Below are positions 3-11,199 of a DNA stretch of 27,131 nucleotides, piece by piece (positions within the stretch are counted from its first letter, which is position 1; every line of letters starts with the position of its first letter). A model generated the notes under the pieces. The model made no database searches. It worked only from the letters and a program-made list of their open reading frames with translations, and was not told where the DNA came from. Source of the DNA: a virus. The stretch is from IMG/VR virus record IMGVR_UViG_3300028840_004062, positions 1 to 27,131 of that record. One strand, given 5' to 3'. The position numbers and the translations under genes are program-made.

Positions 3-704
3 CAATACAAGACTCCCCTGACCTATGTCGCGCCCGAACTGTTCACCGGCCATAAGAGCCTATGCGATATCGCGCAACGGGGAGCCGGGTACCAGACCGG
101 CCAACTGTTCTTCCCCATCGACCCGGACTTCCCTGTACCCAAGGACGCGATCAAGGAGCCCAAGTTCGATTTAGTTTATGTAGGCAATGACTACGATCGC
201 ACCGAAGAGTTCTTCCGCTTCTATTTCGCCGAGGTCGGTGAAAAGATCCAGGTGGTCGGCGACTTCGCGGATAAGGTGCGAACGAAACGGGTTTCCACGA
301 AGCGACTGATGGAGGCGAAGGGTGGCCGCACCGACTTCCCCGGACCTGTTCCCTACACCGAGGTCTTCGACTGCTACCATAACGGAAGGGCTTGCGTCCA
401 GATCGCCACGAAGGAATCCTGCGAAAGCGGTTACATAACTCCGAGAGTCAATGATGTCGTGATGTCCAAGAGGCTTCTCCTCTTTAGCGACCACATCAAG
501 TACATCACGAAACTATTTCGCGAGGAGGATGTGGTTTCCGACAAGAAGGATGCCATCGCGCAAGCGAGATCGTGGTGGAAACTGCCACCTGCCAAGCGTA
601 ACAAGCGGTTGAAGGATCAGCGCGACAGGCTGTACGAGGTGGCGCACATCGACATCTTCTGGGGAGACTTGTGCGGCTTTCTGCAGATGGGAGAAACGGC
701 ATGA
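3..704 (+). CDS. Putative glycosyltransferase, C-terminal part (5' partial)
   Basis: The reading frame is open from the left edge, so the N-terminus lies outside the window and 233 residues are visible. The visible part looks like the C-terminal Rossmann domain of a GT-B fold glycosyltransferase. A strand segment LVYVGNDYDRTEEFF opens the domain, followed by VVGDF and then a GPVPYTEVFDCYHNG stretch, which is the usual 'G.v.y.ev...y' element. After it come a SGYITPRVNDVV segment and KRLLLFSDH, where family members bind the sugar nucleotide and end the fold. It shares a 4-base ATGA overlap with the dCMP deaminase gene, so the two are co-transcribed. A phage enzyme of this type commonly glycosylates a modified DNA base, but it could also act on a protein or the cell surface. 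The family call rests on pattern only. Confidence 0.6.
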   Translation, partial: QYKTPLTYVAPELFTGHKSLCDIAQRGAGYQTGQLFFPIDPDFPVPKDAIKEPKFDLVYVGNDYDRTEEFFRFYFAEVGEKIQVVGDFADKVRTKRVSTKRLMEAKGGRTDFPGPVPYTEVFDCYHNGRACVQIATKESCESGYITPRVNDVVMSKRLLLFSDHIKYITKLFREEDVVSDKKDAIAQARSWWKLPPAKRNKRLKDQRDRLYEVAHIDIFWGDLCGFLQMGETA

Positions 705-1228
705 GCAGGGAAGGTGAAGGTACGGTCTTGGAAGGCAGGGACGTCTTGGATGTCTGCCGCTTGGACTGGGATAGTTATTTCATGCAGTTGGCGAACGATG
801 TCGCCATGCGAGCAACCTGTTCGCGCAAGCGTGTCGGAGCAGTGTTCGTCAGCGATGACCATGCTATCCTCGCGACCGGCTTCAATGGCGCACCGAGAGG
901 GATGCCGCATTGTGATCATTCAGTTACTGTGATTTCTTCAGCGGGAACACAGCATAAGCAAGTGGACAAGAACGGTAACTGCATTACGGCTGTCCATGCT
1001 GAAATGAATGGAATCTTCAATGCGGCGAGGCATGGGGTGTCGCTGGTCGGCGCGACGGTCTACCTTACCGTCGCACCCTGCCGTCACTGTTTCCACGGTC
1101 TGGTCCAGGTCGGCGTTCGGAGAATCGTTTACTGCGACACGTGTCCGTACTACGACTTTACCACGAAATGCGAACGGCTTGGTATCGTTGGGACACGACT
1201 CACCGAGCAGCGATGGGAGCCGGTTTGA
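701..1228 (+). CDS. dCMP (deoxycytidylate) deaminase
   Basis: This 175-residue protein matches zinc-dependent deoxycytidylate deaminases, which convert dCMP to dUMP for thymidylate-type synthesis in the cytoplasm. The zinc and proton-shuttle motif is HAE at residues 99-101, and the second zinc motif is PCRHC at 126-130 (Cys127 and Cys130). GFNGAP near residue 60 corresponds to the GYNG element that in this family contacts substrate and allosteric dCTP. The ATG at 701 is preferred because it overlaps the previous stop as ATGA and sits just after a GATGGGAGA sequence. An in-frame GTG at 671 would add ten residues that look unrelated. In a phage with base hypermodification, dUMP is the precursor of 5-hydroxymethyl-dUMP, so this gene fits its neighbours. 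Confidence 0.93.
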   Translation: MSREGEGTVLEGRDVLDVCRLDWDSYFMQLANDVAMRATCSRKRVGAVFVSDDHAILATGFNGAPRGMPHCDHSVTVISSAGTQHKQVDKNGNCITAVHAEMNGIFNAARHGVSLVGATVYLTVAPCRHCFHGLVQVGVRRIVYCDTCPYYDFTTKCERLGIVGTRLTEQRWEPV

Positions 1229-1611
1229 TGGGTTTCTATGCTCGACGAGTCGATGTGTGGTGGCCGGATCGTGGATGCCACGAACCTCGGTTCTTCGCTC
1301 TGCTAGGGTGTGATCACTGTGAAGGCGAGTGGGAGCAGCGGATCGCGAACAGGTTGCTTTCCATCCACATCAACGTCGGCTTGCCGCTTGCCTTGGAACA
1401 GGTGCGACAGGAAGCGATGGACCTTGGTGGCTGGCGTCGTACCGAGGAGGGCTGGTACTGTCCCTTATGCTGGGAGCGTCGCCGATGGCTGGCCGCATAC
1501 CACAAGGTCAGGACCAGTTACCGCCATCTGCCGCTCTCCCCGGCAGAACTGGCCGGTTTCCTAGCCTTGGAGGGTGTGGCAGGTGCGCCAGATACCTCCG
1601 GAAGTGGCTGA
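1228..1611 (+). CDS. Hypothetical protein with two CxxC pairs
   Basis: This 127-residue protein is not recognised. It contains GCDHC near residue 30 and YCPLCW near residue 77, a pair of CxxC knuckles spaced like a zinc ribbon, and is rich in Trp and Arg, which would suit nucleic-acid or protein binding. The ATG at 1228 shares its A with the stop of the dCMP deaminase, and GGGAG at about 1215-1219 serves as ribosome binding site. An in-frame ATG at 1213 is possible but would overlap more. It is the last gene before a 118-base intergenic gap that holds a strong hairpin, so it probably ends a transcriptional sub-block. Function is unknown. Confidence 0.6.
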   Translation: MGFYARRVDVWWPDRGCHEPRFFALLGCDHCEGEWEQRIANRLLSIHINVGLPLALEQVRQEAMDLGGWRRTEEGWYCPLCWERRRWLAAYHKVRTSYRHLPLSPAELAGFLALEGVAGAPDTSGSG

Positions 1612-1624
1612 AATGCGGTCGATA

Positions 1625-1670
1625 GGCTCGCCCGGAGGGGTAAATGCGGGGTTTTACCCTCCGGGGAGCC
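1625..1670 (+). terminator. GC-rich hairpin, possible terminator or attenuator
   Basis: An inverted repeat pairs CCCGGAGGGGTAAA (from 1631) with a TTTACCCTCCGGG arm ending near 1665, with one bulged G. It is extended by GGCT (1625-1628) against AGCC (1667-1670) across a small internal loop. No T-run follows, so it is not a classical intrinsic terminator; it could be an RNA-stability or attenuation hairpin. The rest of the 1612-1729 gap holds only the AGAAAGGAG ribosome binding site of the next gene. Confidence 0.5.
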
Positions 1671-1729
1671 CAAATCGTTAGAAAGGCTCTAATCCAACCT
1701 AAACAGTTGGACCAGAAAGGAGAAACAAG

Positions 1730-2077
1730 ATGCAAGTAGATGAGATCGTCATCTTTGAAGGTGTGCAAGTGGCAGCCGAAACCAAGAAAGCCTACCTGAT
1801 CGCCGTTCCCGGCTTGCAGGAAGTAAACCGCGAGCACACCGAACTCGGCTTGGCGATGTGGGTTCCACACAGCCAGACGACGGACATCCGCGAAACGCAA
1901 GACGAAACCGGCAAGCGTATCGCGACCATCGCCCTGCAAGGATGGCTCGTGGGCAAGAAGGTGGAGGAGTGGCCGAACATCGAGTCGTGCGAAATCCTGC
2001 TCTACGCCACGAGCGGCATCGAGCAGGGTGTGGCCGACAAGATCCGCAAGCGTCAACAGAAGAGGAGCAAGTTCTGA
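1730..2077 (+). CDS. Hypothetical protein
   Basis: This 115-residue protein has a well-placed AGAAAGGAG ribosome binding site about 7 bases before its ATG. I do not recognise the family. The N-terminal half reads as alternating beta strands (VDEIVIFEGVQVAAET, KAYLIAVPG), with a central AMWVPHSQT segment, and the C-terminus is a basic helix, KIRKRQQKRSKF. No signal peptide or membrane segment is present. Its stop overlaps the start of the base-hypermodification gene by one base, so the pair is translationally coupled. A supporting role for that enzyme is possible but only suggested by position. Confidence 0.65.
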   Translation: MQVDEIVIFEGVQVAAETKKAYLIAVPGLQEVNREHTELGLAMWVPHSQTTDIRETQDETGKRIATIALQGWLVGKKVEEWPNIESCEILLYATSGIEQGVADKIRKRQQKRSKF

Positions 2078-3105
2078 TGAAACGACTGGGAAAACCAGTA
2101 CGCAAGATCCTAGACCTCGCGGTTTACTGGATCAAGGAACGCGATTCTATCTGGCGCAAGCGACACGTAAAGAAACTGCCGCCACCCTGGACGTCAGATC
2201 CTGTCATGGAACAGTATTCCTGGACGAATACCACCCGGCGGAAGGACCGAGGAACTCTGATCATGTATCGCGACGTTTACGGGATGTGGAAATGCACACC
2301 CGGCTTCGGTGATCGTGGAAGGGCGGACCTTCTCATCTTCAACGTCTGCCTTTACCGAATCTTCAACCGAGTGGACACGTGGAGGGCGATCGTCAAGGCT
2401 CTCGGGAAACCGCTCGCCCCCGACTGGAGCGCGAAAACGCGACGCAAGGTGTTACGAGGCTTGGAGCGATACCGCGACGAGCAGGGCGGCAAGGTGTTCA
2501 CGCAAGCGTATATGACTTGGGGCGGAGGTAACCGCCGGAAAATCGGTTCAGGTAACAAGCCCAAGTTCTACGTCAACGAGCGCATCGCAGACTTATGGGA
2601 ACGACTGCCAGCGATTGATCTTTCGTTGAACTTTGGCGCACAGGAGCCTGTCTTTGACGAAATCAGCAAGGCTCTCGCCTTCGGTCCGTTTATCGCGTCG
2701 CAGATCGTGTTCGACCTGACCTACACCTGCATTATGGGAACACTTGGCGGATTGGAGCCTGCCTTCTACGAAACCGACGATGACACGATCGTCGGCTGGG
2801 AGGTCCCAAGAGGTAAGAGGTCGAACATCCAAGACTTGGATACGTGGGTAATGTGCGGTCCGGGTGCGCGACTGTTTCTGCGACTGCTCTGGCCGGACGA
2901 GAAGTTCGGCAAGCCGGAGGAGATGATTGAAGGGACACGAGCGTTCTGGAGAGCCTTGCAGAGGAAGAGTAAACACCCGGCAGTCCAGGACCTTGACCTC
3001 CATGACGCGGAGAATGCCCTGTGCGAATGCTGGAAGTTCTACAAGTTGACTCACACTGAGCGACGCTTTAATCCGAGACGGTTTCATGGGAAAGGAGATA
3101 AGTGA
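2077..3105 (+). CDS. Putative alpha-glutamyl/putrescinyl-thymine pyrophosphorylase-like (amino acid:DNA transferase) protein
   Basis: This 342-residue protein carries the hallmark blocks of the phage family proposed by Iyer, Aravind and colleagues to attach amino acids or polyamines to pyrophosphorylated 5-hydroxymethyl-uracil in DNA. The N-terminal block is WIKERDSIW followed by PPPWTSDPVMEQYSWTNTTR and a K-D pair, resembling the family's 'PWT.D.il......N.yR..Dr'. The middle block is FGPFIASQIVFDLTYT, resembling 'l..FmAyQi..DL.y'. Next come WVMCGPGARLFLRLL ('GPGa.rgl') and, near the end, LHDAENALCECWKFYK ('d.en.lCEfdKY'). The fold is thought to be helical and related to DNA glycosylases. The one-base TGATG overlap sets the start. 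The usual partners, hydroxymethylase and hydroxymethyl-uracil kinase, are not in the window and may lie to the left. The product made is unknown. Confidence 0.68.
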   Translation: MKRLGKPVRKILDLAVYWIKERDSIWRKRHVKKLPPPWTSDPVMEQYSWTNTTRRKDRGTLIMYRDVYGMWKCTPGFGDRGRADLLIFNVCLYRIFNRVDTWRAIVKALGKPLAPDWSAKTRRKVLRGLERYRDEQGGKVFTQAYMTWGGGNRRKIGSGNKPKFYVNERIADLWERLPAIDLSLNFGAQEPVFDEISKALAFGPFIASQIVFDLTYTCIMGTLGGLEPAFYETDDDTIVGWEVPRGKRSNIQDLDTWVMCGPGARLFLRLLWPDEKFGKPEEMIEGTRAFWRALQRKSKHPAVQDLDLHDAENALCECWKFYKLTHTERRFNPRRFHGKGDK

Positions 3106-3110
3106 TGAAA
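3090..3110 (+). repeat. 21-bp direct repeat at gene junction, copy 1
   Basis: The sequence GAAAGGAGATAAGTGATGAA plus one more A spans the last codons (KGDK), the stop and the start of the next gene. An identical 21-base copy lies at 3866-3886, at the other end of the methyltransferase gene. Each copy contains a complete ribosome binding site and a one-base stop/start overlap. Confidence 0.9.
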
Positions 3111-3881
3111 GTCAATACCATCTTCAATGAGGATTGTCTGAAGACGATGGCACGTATGGACGATAATTTCATTGACCTCGTTGTCACAAGTCCTCCCTAC
3201 GATAATCTCAGAACCTATAAAGGATATACGTTCCATTTCAAGGAAGTTGCTGATTCACTATTCAGGGTCATGAAACCAGGAGGAGTCATTGTCTGGATTG
3301 TCAATGATGCCACAATCAACGGCAGTGAGACTGGGACCAGTTTTCGTCAGGCTCTTTATTTCAAGGAGATTGGATTCAAGCTCCATGATACGATGATCTG
3401 GAATAAAGGAGCCTTTACAGCAACGGGTTCCTTGAAGGTTCGATACGCTTCCGTATTTGATTTCATGTTTATTCTGTCATTAGGTAAGCCTAAGACCTTC
3501 AATCCGATAAAGGACAGGAGAAATAAGCACCCAGGAAAACCCAAGGCGGGGACAATTCGGTCAGCAGACGGAAGTCTCAGACGAATGTCCAATGAAGGTA
3601 AGATTCGAGGCGAGTATAGTCAACGCTATAATGTCTGGGAGCAGAGTGCCGTAATGGACAGGTGTAGACAGGACAATCATCCTGCTCCTTTCCCTCTTCA
3701 ATTGGCAATAGATCATATTATCAGTTGGAGCAACGAAGGAGATCTGGTCTATGATCCATTCCTCGGTAGCGGGACTACTTGTTATGCTGCTAAAATTTTA
3801 GGTAGGAAGTATCTCGGAAGTGAAATTTCTTCTGAGTACTTTATAATGGCGAAAAATCGAGTTAAGAAAGGAGATAAGTGA
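3105..3881 (+). CDS. DNA methyltransferase (N4-cytosine or N6-adenine, beta class)
   Basis: This 258-residue protein has the catalytic motif IV TSPPY at residues 28-32 and, near the C-terminus, the S-adenosylmethionine motif I DPFLGSGTT at 217-225. Motif IV before motif I is the beta-class order. TSPPY is more usual for N4-cytosine enzymes but also occurs in N6-adenine ones, so the base is not decided. NHPAPFP (around residue 190) is a further family signature. No restriction endonuclease lies beside it, so it is an orphan that probably protects phage DNA or regulates genes. The ATG at 3105 is preferred over an overlapping GTG at 3102 because of the one-base stop/start overlap. The gene is visibly more AT-rich than the genes before it and is bounded by 21-bp repeats, both signs of separate acquisition. 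Confidence 0.92.
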   Translation: MKVNTIFNEDCLKTMARMDDNFIDLVVTSPPYDNLRTYKGYTFHFKEVADSLFRVMKPGGVIVWIVNDATINGSETGTSFRQALYFKEIGFKLHDTMIWNKGAFTATGSLKVRYASVFDFMFILSLGKPKTFNPIKDRRNKHPGKPKAGTIRSADGSLRRMSNEGKIRGEYSQRYNVWEQSAVMDRCRQDNHPAPFPLQLAIDHIISWSNEGDLVYDPFLGSGTTCYAAKILGRKYLGSEISSEYFIMAKNRVKKGDK

Positions 3882-3886
3882 TGAAA
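3866..3886 (+). repeat. 21-bp direct repeat at gene junction, copy 2
   Basis: This is an exact copy of the 3090-3110 junction: KGDK codons, AAAGGAG ribosome binding site, stop and overlapping ATG. The two copies bracket the methyltransferase gene exactly, so recombination between them would remove or add the gene without breaking translation of its neighbours. Confidence 0.9.
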
Positions 3887-4120
3887 AAGTCTGTCACGAT
3901 TCGATGCTGCAAGGCAGGACGATATGAGGTTTGCAAGGGATGTCGCCACTCGGTTCCACATGTGTGTGATACCGTGGAATTTCGGTGTAGCGAGTGGGGA
4001 GACTGCCTCGCCGGACTAGAATACGGTAAGAACTCGGTTCGGTGTGTAAGAGTTAAGGAAGACAGGGAAACGACAGCGACTGAAACTGGCGTGTCGCCAG
4101 ATGAAGGCCTAGAGGAATAA
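3881..4120 (+). CDS. Small Cys-rich protein, paralogue 1
   Basis: This 79-residue protein has cysteines at 9, 10, 18, 21, 29, 36, 42 and 55, arranged as CCKxG...CKGCxHSxPH...CxEWxDCLxG...VRCxRxK. The spacing suggests a compact zinc-binding domain. The last 25 residues are acidic and probably flexible. It starts at ATG 3881 inside the second junction repeat, with a one-base overlap with the methyltransferase stop. A related protein is encoded at 4340-4555, with a Lar-like gene between them. No known family is recognised. Its place beside a methyltransferase and a Lar-like protein suggests a part in modification or anti-restriction, which is an inference from position only. Confidence 0.75.
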   Translation: MKKSVTIRCCKAGRYEVCKGCRHSVPHVCDTVEFRCSEWGDCLAGLEYGKNSVRCVRVKEDRETTATETGVSPDEGLEE

Positions 4121-4124
4121 GACG

Positions 4125-4343
4125 ATGAAAATGCAGTACGTACACCCGGAATACCGAGGTGAGTCCGAGCGGCTGGCGCGATGTCCGTTCTGCCCTCCGC
4201 ACCTCAAGCCCAAGGTGGGAATGGAGAAGTGGAGGCGAAACTGGCATGTCAAGTGTTACGAGTGCGGAGCCACTGGTCCCCGCGAGTCGCGGAAGGATCA
4301 TGCCGCCGGATTCTGGAACCGATGGCTGAAGGAGATCGGATGA
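4125..4343 (+). CDS. Lar-like restriction alleviation zinc-ribbon protein
   Basis: This 72-residue protein matches the plan of Lar-type restriction alleviation proteins: an N-terminal CPFC (residues 20-23), a middle loop, then VKCYECGATGP (Cys44 and Cys47) and the ending AGFWNRW, which corresponds to the family's 'A...WN.R'. Lar of the E. coli Rac prophage lowers restriction by type I systems, reportedly by favouring methylation. Many phage homologues are only inferred to act this way. The ATG at 4125 lies four bases after the previous stop and follows an AGAGGA ribosome binding site. It sits between two paralogous Cys-rich genes and downstream of the orphan methyltransferase, which suits a host-restriction countermeasure. 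Confidence 0.62.
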   Translation: MKMQYVHPEYRGESERLARCPFCPPHLKPKVGMEKWRRNWHVKCYECGATGPRESRKDHAAGFWNRWLKEIG

Positions 4344-4555
4344 TGCCTAGGTCAAATCTATTCAAGTGCTGTAAATCGGGTTGCGATGACTCGTGCAAGG
4401 GCTGCATTCATTCAGGCCCTCATTCTGATGAAATCCGTTCCATGTATTCATGCGGGGAATGGGAAGACTGCCTTCTTGGTTCTGGGAAAACAATAAGAGT
4501 TCGATGCCTCAGAATCAAAAACGTAAATGATGAAAGGAGATCACATGACCGGTAA
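4340..4555 (+). CDS. Small Cys-rich protein, paralogue 2
   Basis: This 71-residue protein clearly aligns with the 3881-4120 product. Shared positions include KCCKSG, SCKGCIHSGPH, CGEWEDCLLG and VRCLRIK. Cysteines lie at 10, 11, 15, 19, 22, 38, 44 and 55, so the probable zinc-site spacing is kept while the acidic tail of paralogue 1 is replaced by a short basic one. ATG 4340 overlaps the Lar-like stop by four bases and is preceded by AAGGAG; the adjacent ATG at 4343 is equally possible. The 3' end overlaps the start of the HAD-family gene by 11 bases. Function is unknown. Confidence 0.75.
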   Translation: MMPRSNLFKCCKSGCDDSCKGCIHSGPHSDEIRSMYSCGEWEDCLLGSGKTIRVRCLRIKNVNDERRSHDR

Positions 4556-4979
4556 ACAGAACACCTTGAAGCAACGGGTCGACCGCTCGGTTGCGGTTGA
4601 CTTGGATGGCGTCCTTGCGCACTATTGCGGCTGGACTACTTTGGACAAGATCGGTTCCCCCTTGCCGGGTGCGCGAGAGTTCCTGCAAGCCCTCCGCGAT
4701 CGCGGCCACTGGATCGTCATTCATAGTGGTCGTATAAACAAGTTCGCGTCGGAGAGCAACGACATCGCCTTCAATACCGTCCTCGCGGCTGTGGCCGAGT
4801 GGCTGATCGATAACGAAATGCCCTACGACGAGATCTGGAGCAGTTCCGGCAAGCCGCTCGCGGTTGCTTACGTGGACGATCGTGCGCTCCAGTGCCAGTC
4901 GCAACGGAATAAGGGAGCGTTCAAGCAAACACTCCTGGACCTGGAGAAACTGGAAGGAACACATAAGGCAGGAGGCTAA
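4545..4979 (+). CDS. HAD-superfamily hydrolase/phosphatase
   Basis: This 144-residue protein has the haloacid dehalogenase motif I VDLDGVL with the nucleophile Asp19 and acid/base Asp21, a motif II region VIHSGR near residue 64, and motif IV YVDDRAL near residue 110, where the acidic pair binds magnesium. KPLAVAYVDDRA is typical of small phage and bacterial HAD phosphatases. The substrate cannot be read from the sequence; nucleotide or polynucleotide 3'-phosphate and sugar phosphate are all possible. The ATG at 4545 is chosen because AAAGGAG lies 8 bases upstream; earlier in-frame ATGs at 4527 and 4530 have no such site. It overlaps the Cys-rich gene and is followed by a frameshifted gene whose original ATG shares one base with its stop. 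Confidence 0.85.
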   Translation: MTGKQNTLKQRVDRSVAVDLDGVLAHYCGWTTLDKIGSPLPGAREFLQALRDRGHWIVIHSGRINKFASESNDIAFNTVLAAVAEWLIDNEMPYDEIWSSSGKPLAVAYVDDRALQCQSQRNKGAFKQTLLDLEKLEGTHKAGG

Positions 4980-5192
4980 TGAAGTAAAGTCGTCAACATC
5001 AACGACTATCGCCCTCATCTCTCGGTGTGGGAAGCGGCAGGTGCGAGCAATGTACTCCACGTAATCCCACGTTCGTTCTTCGACGATGTGATTGCAGGTA
5101 AGCGAGAGATAACCGAACTAGAGGGATGGGAGAAACTGATGCCGTCTATCCTTACCGAGTGGCTCACTTATCTGAAGCAGTTCCATGAGTGA
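4979..5192 (+). pseudogene. Frameshifted small gene
   Basis: An ATG at 4979 has a good GGAGG ribosome binding site and the one-base TAATG overlap typical of this genome, but reads Met-Lys-stop. If T4985 is ignored, the frame continues as Met-Lys-Lys-Val-Val-Asn-Ile-Asn-Asp-Tyr and stays open to the stop at 5190-5192, giving about 70 residues that look like a real protein (RSFFDDVIAGKREI, EGWEKLMPSILTEWLTYL). No ATG, GTG or TTG occurs in the downstream frame before GTG 5025, which lacks a ribosome binding site. So this is either a gene inactivated by a single-base insertion or a sequencing error. The intact product is not recognised. Confidence 0.6.
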
Positions 5193-5616
5193 GAAGGTCT
5201 TAGATGTTAACTCTGAGAAGGTCTTAGATGTTAACTCTGAGAAGGTCAAGTTTCGCCCTGTGGCCGGGTGGCCGAGGTTCTACGTGAGCGACTCTGGTCA
5301 CCTGTGGAGGCAGTACAAGAACGGTAAGATCAAAAACCTCAAATCCTGGAGGTCTGGGAACGGCTATCTGTACTGGACACTGTGCGCGAACGGGAGGAAG
5401 CGGAAGGTGGCTTGCCACTTGCTTATCGCGGAAACATTCCTGGAGAAGCCCGACCTTGACCACGAGAATCAGTATGTCGTGGTCAATCACAAGGACGGCC
5501 GGAAGGATAACGTTCGCCTGTCGAACCTTGAGTGGCTGAAAGGGAACGGAAACCTGCTCCACGCGATGGAGCATAAACTATGGAGAAGGAAAGGACATGG
5601 GAAACACGGCAACTGA
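5185..5616 (+). CDS. HNH homing endonuclease with NUMOD4 motif
   Basis: This 143-residue protein shows a NUMOD4-type DNA-binding motif (FRPVAGWPRFYVSDSGHLW, residues 23-41) followed by an HNH_3-type nuclease core: HLLIAETF with His78, VVNHKDGRKDN with Asn101, His102 and Asn109, then LSNLEWL. This is the standard layout of free-standing phage HNH homing endonucleases, which cut DNA lacking the gene and so promote their own spread. The N-terminus is odd because SEKVLDVN occurs twice, encoded by a perfect 24-bp tandem repeat. The first eight bases overlap the stop of the frameshifted gene, so insertion of the endonuclease may be linked to its decay. The ribosome binding site is weak. Confidence 0.88.
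   Translation: MSEKVLDVNSEKVLDVNSEKVKFRPVAGWPRFYVSDSGHLWRQYKNGKIKNLKSWRSGNGYLYWTLCANGRKRKVACHLLIAETFLEKPDLDHENQYVVVNHKDGRKDNVRLSNLEWLKGNGNLLHAMEHKLWRRKGHGKHGN
5190..5247 (+). repeat. 24-bp tandem repeat (2 full copies plus 10 bases)
   Basis: The unit starts TGAGAAGGTCTTAGATG and occupies 5190-5213 and 5214-5237 without mismatch, then TGAGAAGGTC at 5238-5247. It duplicates SEKVLDVN in frame at the start of the HNH gene, consistent with replication slippage. Confidence 0.95.
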
Positions 5617-5830
5617 AAAGAAGAAGCGTCGCATGAAACGCAAGCGGGAACGTGAACGCTTGCAGAAGCGAGACGGGTATACCATGGACAATATTCCGAG
5701 GTGCGACGGGTGCGGCAAGGAATGGAGTTACACGATCCTTGAACCTGCCCTACCTAACGGCTGGATATGCCCCGAGTGCATCGCACTGAACGTTTCGTGG
5801 ATGGAGGTCATGCAATCGGAAACAAGGTAA
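5597..5830 (+). CDS. Small zinc-ribbon-like protein
   Basis: This 77-residue protein has a strongly basic N-terminal helix (KKKRRMKRKRERERLQKR) followed by CDGCG near residue 36 and CPEC near residue 58, a pair of CxxC knuckles as in a zinc ribbon. A basic arm plus zinc ribbon suits nucleic-acid binding, but no family is recognised. The ATG at 5597 has GGAAAGG upstream and overlaps the HNH gene by 20 bases. It is the last gene of the accessory block, and an intrinsic terminator follows 38 bases after its stop. Confidence 0.65.
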   Translation: MGNTATEKKKRRMKRKRERERLQKRDGYTMDNIPRCDGCGKEWSYTILEPALPNGWICPECIALNVSWMEVMQSETR

Positions 5831-5868
5831 CAGAGTTCGTTCCCGGTTGCTACCGTACTGGGAACCTT

Positions 5869-5922
5869 GGACCTCGATCGGTTTTCACGAGTCCCCCTTG
5901 GCCGGTCGAGGTCCCTTTCTTT
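5869..5922 (+). terminator. Intrinsic terminator
   Basis: GGACCTCGATCGG (5869-5881) pairs with CCGGTCGAGGTCC (5902-5914) over 13 base pairs with one G-U wobble, and CTTTCTTT follows directly. It lies just after the last accessory gene and probably ends that transcription unit. Confidence 0.75.
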
Positions 5923-8954: not shown

Positions 8955-9637
8955 TGCCAGCGAAGAAGGTTTCACCTAAAAAGAAATCGGCGACCTCGAA
9001 GACTTGGAAGTCCTCGAGGTCTTCGAAGTCTTCCGGAAAGAAACCAGTTCCACGCGAGAAGACCGTGGAGATGATAACTCGCGCCAATGAACTCTACTGG
9101 CAGAGCCTAACCTGGAACGACATCGCGGCCACCTTGAACGCCGAAGGACTTACTCGGCGCGATGGGAAAACTTGCCGCGATATTCCAAGTCAGTTCGCCG
9201 AATTGTGGGACAAGTTGAACGAAGGGCATAAAGCGAAGCATAAGGCAATCACCGAGCGGAATGCACTGATGCAGGTGCGGGAACTCATCACCTATCAATC
9301 GCCTATCTTCGTTCCCAAGAGTGCGAAGCGGCAGGAACTGGAGAATGCCCTCAACGATGTGGAACCCGAGGATAAGGCAGGTGTGCTCATCCAACTGAAC
9401 AGGGAAGACCGAGCAGACGCTTACGTTCGTTTACGGGCAGCGAGCGTCGCCCTGACCCGGCTGGACAAGTTGCATGTCGAACTCAATGCGAATACCTTCA
9501 ACTTTGATTTCAGCGAACAGGAAATCAAGGAGGAGACCGGCCGAGTGGCGGATGCCTTGCGCCAACTCGGGGAAGACATGCAACGGTATACCAAGGGCGG
9601 CAACGGCAAGAGCCACACAGAGGACTTTACTAACTGA
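8954..9637 (+). CDS. Terminase small subunit (probable)
   Basis: This 227-residue protein lies immediately before the large terminase and is coupled to it by a one-base overlap, the standard place for the DNA-recognition subunit of the packaging motor. Residues 1-33 are a Lys/Ser-rich basic tail. Residues 43-75 (ITRANELYWQSLTWNDIAAT and the following RRDGKTCRD) read as a helix-turn-helix. The rest is predicted helical with an acidic C-terminal part, as needed for a ring oligomer. I see no family-specific motif, so the call is mainly from position and the helix-turn-helix. GGAGG directly precedes the ATG. A near-perfect 36-base palindrome lies inside the basic-tail codons. Confidence 0.68.
   Translation: MPAKKVSPKKKSATSKTWKSSRSSKSSGKKPVPREKTVEMITRANELYWQSLTWNDIAATLNAEGLTRRDGKTCRDIPSQFAELWDKLNEGHKAKHKAITERNALMQVRELITYQSPIFVPKSAKRQELENALNDVEPEDKAGVLIQLNREDRADAYVRLRAASVALTRLDKLHVELNANTFNFDFSEQEIKEETGRVADALRQLGEDMQRYTKGGNGKSHTEDFTN
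8998..9033. other. 36-bp imperfect palindrome inside the small terminase gene
   Basis: The sequence is centred on CCTCGAGG and runs GAAGACTT...AAGTCTTC, with 16 of 18 position pairs complementary. Part of this may come from the Lys/Ser-rich codons, but a symmetric site within the small terminase gene is also where many phages keep the packaging signal. Confidence 0.45.
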
Positions 9638-11199
9638 TGCAAGATTCGTTCGCCATAGAAGACGAGTTTACTCGCGCACCTGCTCCACCTGCCTTTGATG
9701 ACAGGCGACAGGGAGCCGCATTCTATCGGCGGCTCGGCGAGCTCGGTATGCGGGATCCTTTCATCTTTATGAAAGTGATTCTCGGTTATGACTGGATGGA
9801 AGAATACCATTACCACTGGATTCAGCGTTACCTGTATTACCGCGACCGAAACATGCTCCGGCTCTACAGTCGTGGAACTGGCAAGAGCACAGTCCATACC
9901 ATCGGCTTCGCGCTATGGGAGGCTGTGCGAAAACCAACGATTCGTCAGATCATCGTCAATAACCGCGAGAAGAATGCAGTGGCATTCTTGCGGACGATTC
10001 GTCAGCATCTCAAGTACAACTTGCGATTCAAGATGTGCTATCCGCACCTGCAACTCGCCAAGGACGACCAGACTGAAATCGTGTTTATACTGGCCGAGAA
10101 GGACCCCCGTCCGGAACCGAGCATCGCGGCCATCGGTGTTCGCGGCAACTTGGTATCCGCTCACTGGGATATTATGCACCTGGATGATATTGTCAGCGAC
10201 AAGGATATGCTGAGCAATGAAATCCGCGAGGGAACGAAGGTGTGGTTTGAAGCCGCTCAGTCATTGCTCAATGTAGGTGGCCGCTTCTCCATTACCGGAA
10301 CACCTTGGCACTTGGATGACTTGTACGCCAAGATCAGGGAAGACAATCGATTACTCGAGGAGCATCGCCGTTATGTGATCGATGTGCAAGGTGCAACGAA
10401 TATGGATGGCTCGTTGGCGTATCCCACAGTGTACCCGGTTGGACGCTTGCGAGCTCTTCGGGAAACGATGGGAGTCGGACTCTACAATTCGCAGGTGCTA
10501 TGCAAGCCGCAACCGGCGGAGACCCAACTATTTTCATATGACACTGTGAAGTTATTCGACCATCGAACGAATAAGAATTTCTACCATGGATTTTATCTGT
10601 ATTTGGACCCGGCCACAGGTAAGAAGGGCGACGTTCCCGGCATGGATTATAATGCATTAGTCGCAGGTGGCTTGTCTCCAGATGGGACACTCGACATCAT
10701 GCGAGCCTTGCTTCTTCGCGCCAAGCCGAGTAAAATCTGCCAGTTGATTCTTCAGTTGCATCGCGAATATCATTTCGATGGTGTCATCGTGGAGTCGAAC
10801 GGCTTCCAGGAAATGATTGCTGATGAATTGGATAGGTTGGCAACGGCCAAGGGGATGGGACTTACTGTGCATCGCATGACGAACAGTAAATCAAAGACCC
10901 TGCGAATTTCCTCCATTGAGCCAATCTGGTTACGTGGATACTTACGGCTTCGCGACGACTTGGTTACTTTCGTGGATCCGCTTACCAAGACGACCAGTTA
11001 CCACGAGTTTATGGAGCAGGTGGTCGGATGGCCGGTTGCCGCTCACGATGATGCACCCGACGCTCTTGCCAGTTTATGTCGGGCTGTGAAATACTTGTTT
11101 CATAAAGTGACGATTGAAGAGCAACTCAACGTCGCGGGTAAAGGAGGCATCGATGCCGAAGCCATCGCTGCATTACGATATTCTGTTAGTTCTTCATAA
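9637..11199 (+). CDS. terL: Terminase large subunit (ATPase/nuclease)
   Basis: This 520-residue protein is the packaging motor. The ATPase has Walker A SRGTGKST at residues 78-85, Walker B IMHLDD at 179-184 with the acidic pair, and the coupling motif TGTPW at 220-224. The C-terminal RNase H-like nuclease shows acidic residues in LYLDPATG (Asp324), VIVESNG (Glu386) and HDDAPDAL (Asp471 to Asp475). It cuts concatemeric DNA and pumps it through the portal. The length is normal for the family. The start shares one base with the small-subunit stop, and the 3' end overlaps a small gene by 47 bases. TerL phylogeny is the usual guide to packaging type, which cannot be decided here. Confidence 0.95.
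   Translation: MQDSFAIEDEFTRAPAPPAFDDRRQGAAFYRRLGELGMRDPFIFMKVILGYDWMEEYHYHWIQRYLYYRDRNMLRLYSRGTGKSTVHTIGFALWEAVRKPTIRQIIVNNREKNAVAFLRTIRQHLKYNLRFKMCYPHLQLAKDDQTEIVFILAEKDPRPEPSIAAIGVRGNLVSAHWDIMHLDDIVSDKDMLSNEIREGTKVWFEAAQSLLNVGGRFSITGTPWHLDDLYAKIREDNRLLEEHRRYVIDVQGATNMDGSLAYPTVYPVGRLRALRETMGVGLYNSQVLCKPQPAETQLFSYDTVKLFDHRTNKNFYHGFYLYLDPATGKKGDVPGMDYNALVAGGLSPDGTLDIMRALLLRAKPSKICQLILQLHREYHFDGVIVESNGFQEMIADELDRLATAKGMGLTVHRMTNSKSKTLRISSIEPIWLRGYLRLRDDLVTFVDPLTKTTSYHEFMEQVVGWPVAAHDDAPDALASLCRAVKYLFHKVTIEEQLNVAGKGGIDAEAIAALRYSVSSS

Follow-up and report, generated by a model that had tools for sequence, protein, structure and literature searches.

The left end of IMG/VR record IMGVR_UViG_3300028840_004062 raises the question of whether the phage it comes from carries hypermodified thymine and, if so, which kind of group is attached to the base. 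The original prediction proposed bulky non-canonical bases, possibly both glycosylated and amino-acid-linked. We analyzed positions 1 to 27,131 of the record (27,131 nucleotides, hereafter the window), a linear sequence cut at both ends. To the right of the region of interest lie genes for terminase, major head protein, minor tail protein, tape measure, and a portal-like protein (the last from weak matches). The closest terminase is that of ANMV-1 virus (29% identity), and there was no near DNA match to the window among phages. The genes of the first 4.3 kb are co-directional, as predicted, with stop/start overlaps at most junctions. The features of this run are as follows.

3..704, + strand: C-terminal part of a GT-B-like (Glyco_trans_1_2/CgeB-type) glycosyltransferase, a tentative assignment from a sub-cut-off PF13524 match; the gene starts left of the window.
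701..1228, + strand: dCMP deaminase (PF00383, phrog_174), start read from the sequence.
1228..1611, + strand: small protein, an open frame whose start overlaps the deaminase stop; weak phrog_8303 match (2.7e-4).
1730..2077, + strand: 115-aa protein whose stop overlaps the HMUDK_hel start; no significant family match in Pfam, PHROG, or NCBIfam.
2077..3105, + strand: HMUDK_hel protein (PF18723), 342 aa, assigned from PF18723, phrog_2396, invariant residues, an AlphaFold2 model, and structure comparison.
3090..3110, + strand: left copy of a 21-nt direct repeat, GAAAGGAGATAAGTGATGAAA, comprising a ribosome-binding site plus the stop/start overlap.
3105..3881, + strand: N6/N4 DNA methyltransferase (PF01555).
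3866..3886, + strand: right copy of the repeat, GAAAGGAGATAAGTGATGAAA, identical to the left copy.
Between the methyltransferase and the Lar-like gene: 80-aa open frame.
4125..4343, + strand: Lar-like zinc-ribbon protein, possibly for restriction alleviation (PF14354, TIGR03655, phrog_599).

Judged by its sequence, the product of the central gene (2077-3105) belongs to PF18723 as a genuine though divergent member, with a match beyond chance. The ordered sequence blocks pointed out in the original prediction are present and belong to this family, and the HMUDK_hel profile matches the protein with an E value of 2.1e-39 (score 136 bits; cut-off 25 bits) in two stretches, the best of which covers profile positions 2-192 of 281; phrog_2396 matches at 1.1e-37. 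All 14 residues that are invariant in 12 aligned sequences are kept (R22, N51, R54, D57, A144, G203, F205, D213, G261-P262-G263, C316, E317, and K320), and these residues are common to the homologues found with kinases and to those found with glycosyltransferases. Identity to the 11 aligned homologues is 22-29%. On the tree, the protein sits on a long branch and shares no more than 29% identity with any relative; given both, its function may have shifted. The PF18724 profile matched neither this protein nor anything else in the record. In a control run on phage M6, the profiles assigned gp54 to the kinase family PF18748, gp55 to PF18723, and gp51 to PF18724. Pfam currently names PF18723 "5-hmdU DNA kinase, helical domain" and PF18724 "Amino acid:DNA transferase" (ADDT). 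Homologues still carry the name alpha-glutamyl/putrescinyl thymine pyrophosphorylase on GenBank records and in papers, which, from these annotations, we take to be the older name of PF18723.

The closest described proteins, of the family annotated elsewhere as aGPT-Pplase clade 1, are M6 gp55, Stenotrophomonas phage Sonora gp42, and the protein of Rhizobium phage RHph_I65. The window protein shares with them the profile family, the invariant residues, and a full-length alignment, but it is only 21-29% identical to them and has an insertion of about 30 residues at about 219-250, and no P-loop kinase, synthase, or ADDT gene is visible beside its gene.

An AlphaFold2 model of the protein, built from a 53-sequence alignment, is all-helical, with 13 helices and a pLDDT of 84.8. 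In VIA-align the nearest structure was the glycinyltransferase gp46/PUGT of phage PaMx11 (Z 10.2, 216 aligned residues, rmsd 4.1), followed by DNA glycosylases of the AGOG, AlkA, OGG1, and EndoIII types (Z up to 9.7) and by the queuine salvage enzyme DUF2419; unrelated folds scored Z 4.8 or less. A Z near 10 among mostly helical models can reflect a common arrangement and is no proof. Foldseek gave no significant match with the model, its best being gp46/PUGT again (E 0.36), and sequence searches of the PDB with the single protein and with a 12-sequence family profile returned nothing significant. The top of the model-based structural list is nevertheless biologically coherent. The enzyme gp46, which we assume to belong to ADDT, acts on 5-phosphomethyl-dU (5-PmdU) in DNA, and ADDT proteins of the M6 gp51 type have a G-x-G-P-aromatic, HhH-like motif in common with the window protein. 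Unlike gp46 and ADDT, the window protein belongs to another sequence family and shows no significant overall profile similarity to them: when the HMUDK_hel and ADDT profiles are compared, the short HhH-like motif alone aligns (probability 1.3%). From the model, the protein probably has a base-flipping fold like that of HhH DNA glycosylases. Since these glycosylases, which are among the nearest folds, work by flipping a base out of the DNA helix, we infer a base-handling role.

The neighboring genes were examined in the same way. The dCMP deaminase, named as such from the outset, matches PF00383 over the zinc-binding region (E 7.1e-26, 90.5 bits against a cut-off of 25) and phrog_174 (9.1e-40); a start at 701 is likelier than one at 671 because the ATG at 701 overlaps the stop of the upstream glycosyltransferase gene. 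Its predicted role is dUMP supply. The methyltransferase call likewise held (PF01555, 1.3e-39). This gene has a GC content of 43% (GC3 44%), against 55-61% (GC3 62-77%) for the five genes 5′ of it, and it is bounded on both sides by the perfect 21-nt direct repeat. From the contrast in GC and GC3, it is probably a recently acquired cassette. The Lar-like gene and the glycosyltransferase came out less firmly than predicted. The former does resemble PF14354 (9e-4), TIGR03655 (6e-5), and phrog_599 (7e-5), but its Pfam and NCBIfam scores (19.8 and 23.2 bits) lie below the curated cut-offs (28.6 and 39.6 bits). The glycosyltransferase fragment, which lacks its N terminus, resembles PF13524 (residues 79-208 on profile positions 14-127 of 144) with an E value of 1.8e-4, scoring 21.9 bits where the cut-off is 25. 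It had no match in PHROG, NCBIfam, or the PDB, and its single-sequence AlphaFold2 model has a pLDDT of 36. The target of the enzyme could lie on the cell surface or the virion.

To see with which genes the central family is associated elsewhere, we turned to its relatives. Among the 10 named phage genomes with PF18723, all have a gene of the thymidylate-synthase family (PF00303), 8 have the kinase PF18748, and 7 have ADDT. The two kinase-free phages are LuckyBarnes, which has two TAGT glycosyltransferase genes directly upstream of HMUDK_hel, and Pajaza, with a TAGT match below threshold. In Bacillus phage Goe26 the HMUDK_hel domain is fused to the kinase, and in Vi01 (ViI) a long distance separates the HMUDK_hel gene (87.6-88.6 kb) from the kinase and synthase genes (37-39 kb). 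Pattern scans added 88 further viral loci. Across the 101 loci surveyed, which are phages, plasmids, and one genome contig and include a few duplicate records, TAGT without a kinase was found in 40, a kinase in 33 (in 5 cases together with a GT-B-like gene), a GT-B-like gene without TAGT or kinase in 17, and none of these in 11. In no locus did TAGT and a kinase occur together (0/101), and ADDT, present in 11 loci, was always accompanied by a kinase. A gene of the thymidylate-synthase family is usually near HMUDK_hel; the synthases of four loci (L008, L016, L018, and L023) are 41-50% identical to that of phage M6.

The partner split is significant by Fisher's test over 77 de-duplicated clusters at 80% identity (p = 1e-8) and over 57 at 60% (p = 1e-5). 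It gives p = 0.14 over 20 single-linkage clusters at 50%, a level that merges sister lineages differing in their partners. A first pass used narrower profiles; for the 101-locus count they were widened with members of the survey, and that count is hence not blind. Independently of these local profiles, Pfam's own PF18748 matched none of 30 whole kinase-free records with TAGT or GT-B-like genes. The three GT-B-like clusters were called by inspection, have no Pfam match, and include one whose best PDB matches have an E value of 0.34. On a tree built by a quick search, kinase and glycosyltransferase labels interleave, and branches with good support require the kinase label to change at least 7 times. 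In the most clear-cut case, two loci, L050 and L040, share the gene order c3-c6-c7-c8-X-HMUDK_hel, in which position X is taken by a kinase in one locus and by TAGT in the other; their HMUDK_hel proteins are 54% identical, and L040 has two small extra frames.

TAGT enzymes have been implicated as DNA glucosyltransferases of T6-like phages, with the probable role of attaching a second glucose to glucosyl-hmC (PMC13390438). In pelagiphages of the HTVC023P type, TS is colocated with a PF18723-family protein (aG/PT-PPlase1), and in some of them the region also encodes a glucosyltransferase; unlike the survey, the accessible text of that report reads aG/PT-PPlase1 as an addition to the M6 system and gives no account of glycosyltransferase and kinase as alternatives (PMC9599517). 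We found no literature statement that the two are mutually exclusive partners, though key papers fell outside our search. Because the partner is a kinase or TAGT, never both, an HMUDK_hel gene alone does not imply an amino-acid-linked thymine.

The window itself departs from this pattern. The whole record, which is a fragment, contains no match to the kinase PF18748, ADDT PF18724, TAGT PF20691, or the thymidylate-synthase family PF00303. When relatives were viewed through an equivalent frame (2.07 kb of 5′ sequence and everything available 3′, usually 8-10 kb), the kinase was visible in 23/23 kinase loci with enough flank, TAGT in 29/30, and the synthase in 61/64. Since such a frame would show the partners in relatives, the layout of the window is an outlying one, and any further genes of the pathway lie to its left; Vi01 is a precedent for the scattering of pathway genes. 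Queries with the central protein or the glycosyltransferase fragment found no contig extending the window leftward; single-sequence searches of IMG/VR with either recovered no relative, nor did a search of genome contigs with the glycosyltransferase fragment. Major head protein and terminase queries returned two short contigs only, both without the region of interest. The GT-B-like fragment (3-704) is the sole candidate partner visible in the window. A proposed colinearity of this fragment with one of the relatives' GT-B-like clusters (cluster 14) was rejected (hhalign probability 0.6%; at least 7 of 2000 shuffles outscored it in HMMER), and it did not align with the other two clusters either. 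The LuckyBarnes cassette of HMUDK_hel, TAGT, and thymidylate synthase resembles the window in having a glycosyltransferase nearby and no kinase. It differs in that its TAGT (PF20691) is in direct tandem, whereas the enzyme of the window is GT-B PF13524-like and stands three small genes apart.

The likeliest meaning of the locus is that the virion DNA carries a bulky base derived from 5-hydroxymethyluracil (5hmU). To this extent the original prediction stands, as the window does hold a gene of the thymine-hypermodification type. Amino-acid or polyamine linkage is not supported: the motifs that suggested it are those of PF18723, ADDT and P-loop kinase are absent from the window, and in dozens of phage loci the same protein adjoins a glycosyltransferase without a kinase. 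The combination of glycosylated and amino-acid-linked bases is least likely, given that TAGT and kinase stay apart and that ADDT occurred only with a kinase. The best explanation, to which we give close to even confidence, is that HMUDK_hel presents 5hmU to a partner enzyme, here probably the GT-B-like one. The phage would make 5hmU from dUMP, with the dCMP deaminase in the window and a hydroxymethylase expected in the missing left part. Judging from fold and gene context, HMUDK_hel would recognize 5hmU in replicated phage DNA and would present or flip it to a partner that modifies the hydroxymethyl group. In relatives that partner, sometimes in the same gene slot, would be either a P-loop kinase, on the way to amine-linked thymines, or a glycosyltransferase, with glycosylated 5hmU as the predicted product. 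Of the genes in view, the GT-B-like one is the likeliest partner, and this tips the balance slightly toward a sugar over an amino acid in this phage, a putative 5hmU-hypermodifying one whose left side is missing. Among the points against the best explanation are the lack of a hydroxymethylase in the record, although the synthase is so regularly visible in the equivalent frame of relatives, and the state of the glycosyltransferase fragment, which is below cut-off and not alignable with the relatives' GT-B-like clusters. A wider proposition, more tentative and at present rather doubtful, is that HMUDK_hel proteins are interchangeable base-presenting modules of 5hmU-DNA modification rather than subunits of the kinase, and that many phages, including this one with its GT-B-type enzyme, have swapped kinase for glycosyltransferase, sometimes in the same slot, to glycosylate 5hmU. 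Phage glycosylated 5hmU would, under such a swap, be a counterpart of base J.

The alternative that survives best, though we consider it unlikely, is the classic amine pathway, in which hydroxymethylase, P-loop kinase, and ADDT genes lie left of the window, the thymine is amine-linked as in M6 and ViI, and the glycosyltransferase is unrelated. The frequency of kinase and ADDT among the named phages agrees with it, as does the distance of the HMUDK_hel gene from its partners in Vi01, near which the window protein falls on the tree, both on long branches. Against it, PF18748 and PF18724 are both absent from the window, and the kinase was visible in every kinase-type locus with enough flank.

A still less probable reading is that the phage has no 5hmU pathway and that its HMUDK_hel protein is an orphan with another role (inhibitor, defense, or counter-defense), perhaps like the kinase-free plasmid copies. 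Homologues do occur on bacterial and archaeal plasmids: the Natronomonas copy is beside no recognized pathway gene, and the Allocoleopsis copy is flanked by a thymidylate synthase gene on one side and a nucleoside triphosphate pyrophosphohydrolase gene on the other. In the DefensePredictor paper, some validated defense systems contain a 5-hmdU kinase or a thymidylate synthase domain, and aGPT-Pplase occurs in a predicted system (PMC13092281). The lack of synthase, kinase, and TAGT in the window fits as well, and no synthase appeared in 8 of the surveyed loci for which the 5′ flank was at least 4 kb long. However, the conserved residues are kept, the gene overlaps its neighbors within a run of phage genes, with a dCMP deaminase close by, and every named phage with PF18723 has a synthase-family gene. 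Finally, that HMUDK_hel is itself the transferase, adding a group to 5hmU or phosphorylated 5hmU like gp46 and with no dedicated partner, is improbable: gp46/PUGT is the best fold match and kinase-type and GT-type homologues alike keep the 14 invariant residues, but there is no PF18724 match, only the HhH-like motif aligns with ADDT, and the kinase fusion in Goe26 and the separate modifying enzyme adjoining in most relatives suit a partner role better.

The name "alpha-glutamyl/putrescinyl thymine pyrophosphorylase" is a trap, suggesting a chemistry that PF18723 alone does not show. Brevibacterium phage LuckyBarnes, with a synthase, two TAGT genes, HMUDK_hel, and no kinase, offers a cultivable test case. 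Glycosylated 5hmU was described in 2019 as unreported in phage genomes (PMC6449724). If the swapping of partners is true, this single family would be a marker of 5hmU-based modification of DNA at large rather than of amine-linked thymine, and glycosylated 5hmU would be present in many uncultivated phages.

The window's N6/N4 DNA methyltransferase gene lies directly 3' of its HMUDK_hel gene (5-hmdU DNA kinase, helical domain), with one copy of a direct repeat on each side.

Window 3090-3110: 21-nt direct repeat, left copy
Window 3866-3886: 21-nt direct repeat, right copy
Window 9637-11199: terminase large subunit, nearest match in ANMV-1 virus

The repeat copies match perfectly in the same orientation, and the repeat contains an RBS and a stop/start overlap. 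The methyltransferase gene has a GC content of 43% (GC3, 44%), whereas the genes on its 5' side have 55-61%. Because of the perfect flanking repeats and lower GC, the gene looks like a cassette inserted or swapped via recombination at the translation-start sequence. The phage is a member of a little-sampled lineage, since its terminase is 29% identical to the nearest match, from ANMV-1 virus of an uncultured archaeon, and just two short related contigs were found (L014 and L015).

Three other surveyed loci carry these features:

L063 7914-9762: two neighbouring HMUDK_hel genes
L012 (Allocoleopsis plasmid) 2172-5920: a single run of genes for an ImmA/IrrE-type peptidase, a thymidylate synthase, HMUDK_hel and a nucleoside triphosphate pyrophosphohydrolase
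L018 8315-9328: radical-SAM-like gene (cluster 16), assigned by inspection

The second HMUDK_hel gene of L063 is strongly diverged, and two kinase matches lie ~4-5 kb downstream. The four-gene plasmid run may be a defence system. Among the 101 loci, the sole exceptions to the kinase-or-glycosyltransferase split are L044, L047, L054, L074 and L075, where a kinase and a cluster-14 GT-B-like gene occur together.

The radical-SAM-like gene, again assigned by inspection, repeatedly adjoins HMUDK_hel, together with glycosyltransferases and the synthase; besides L018, it is present in L025, L026, L039, L041, L043, L058, L060, L071 and L074. This recurrence suggests additional chemistry acting on the modified base in these loci.
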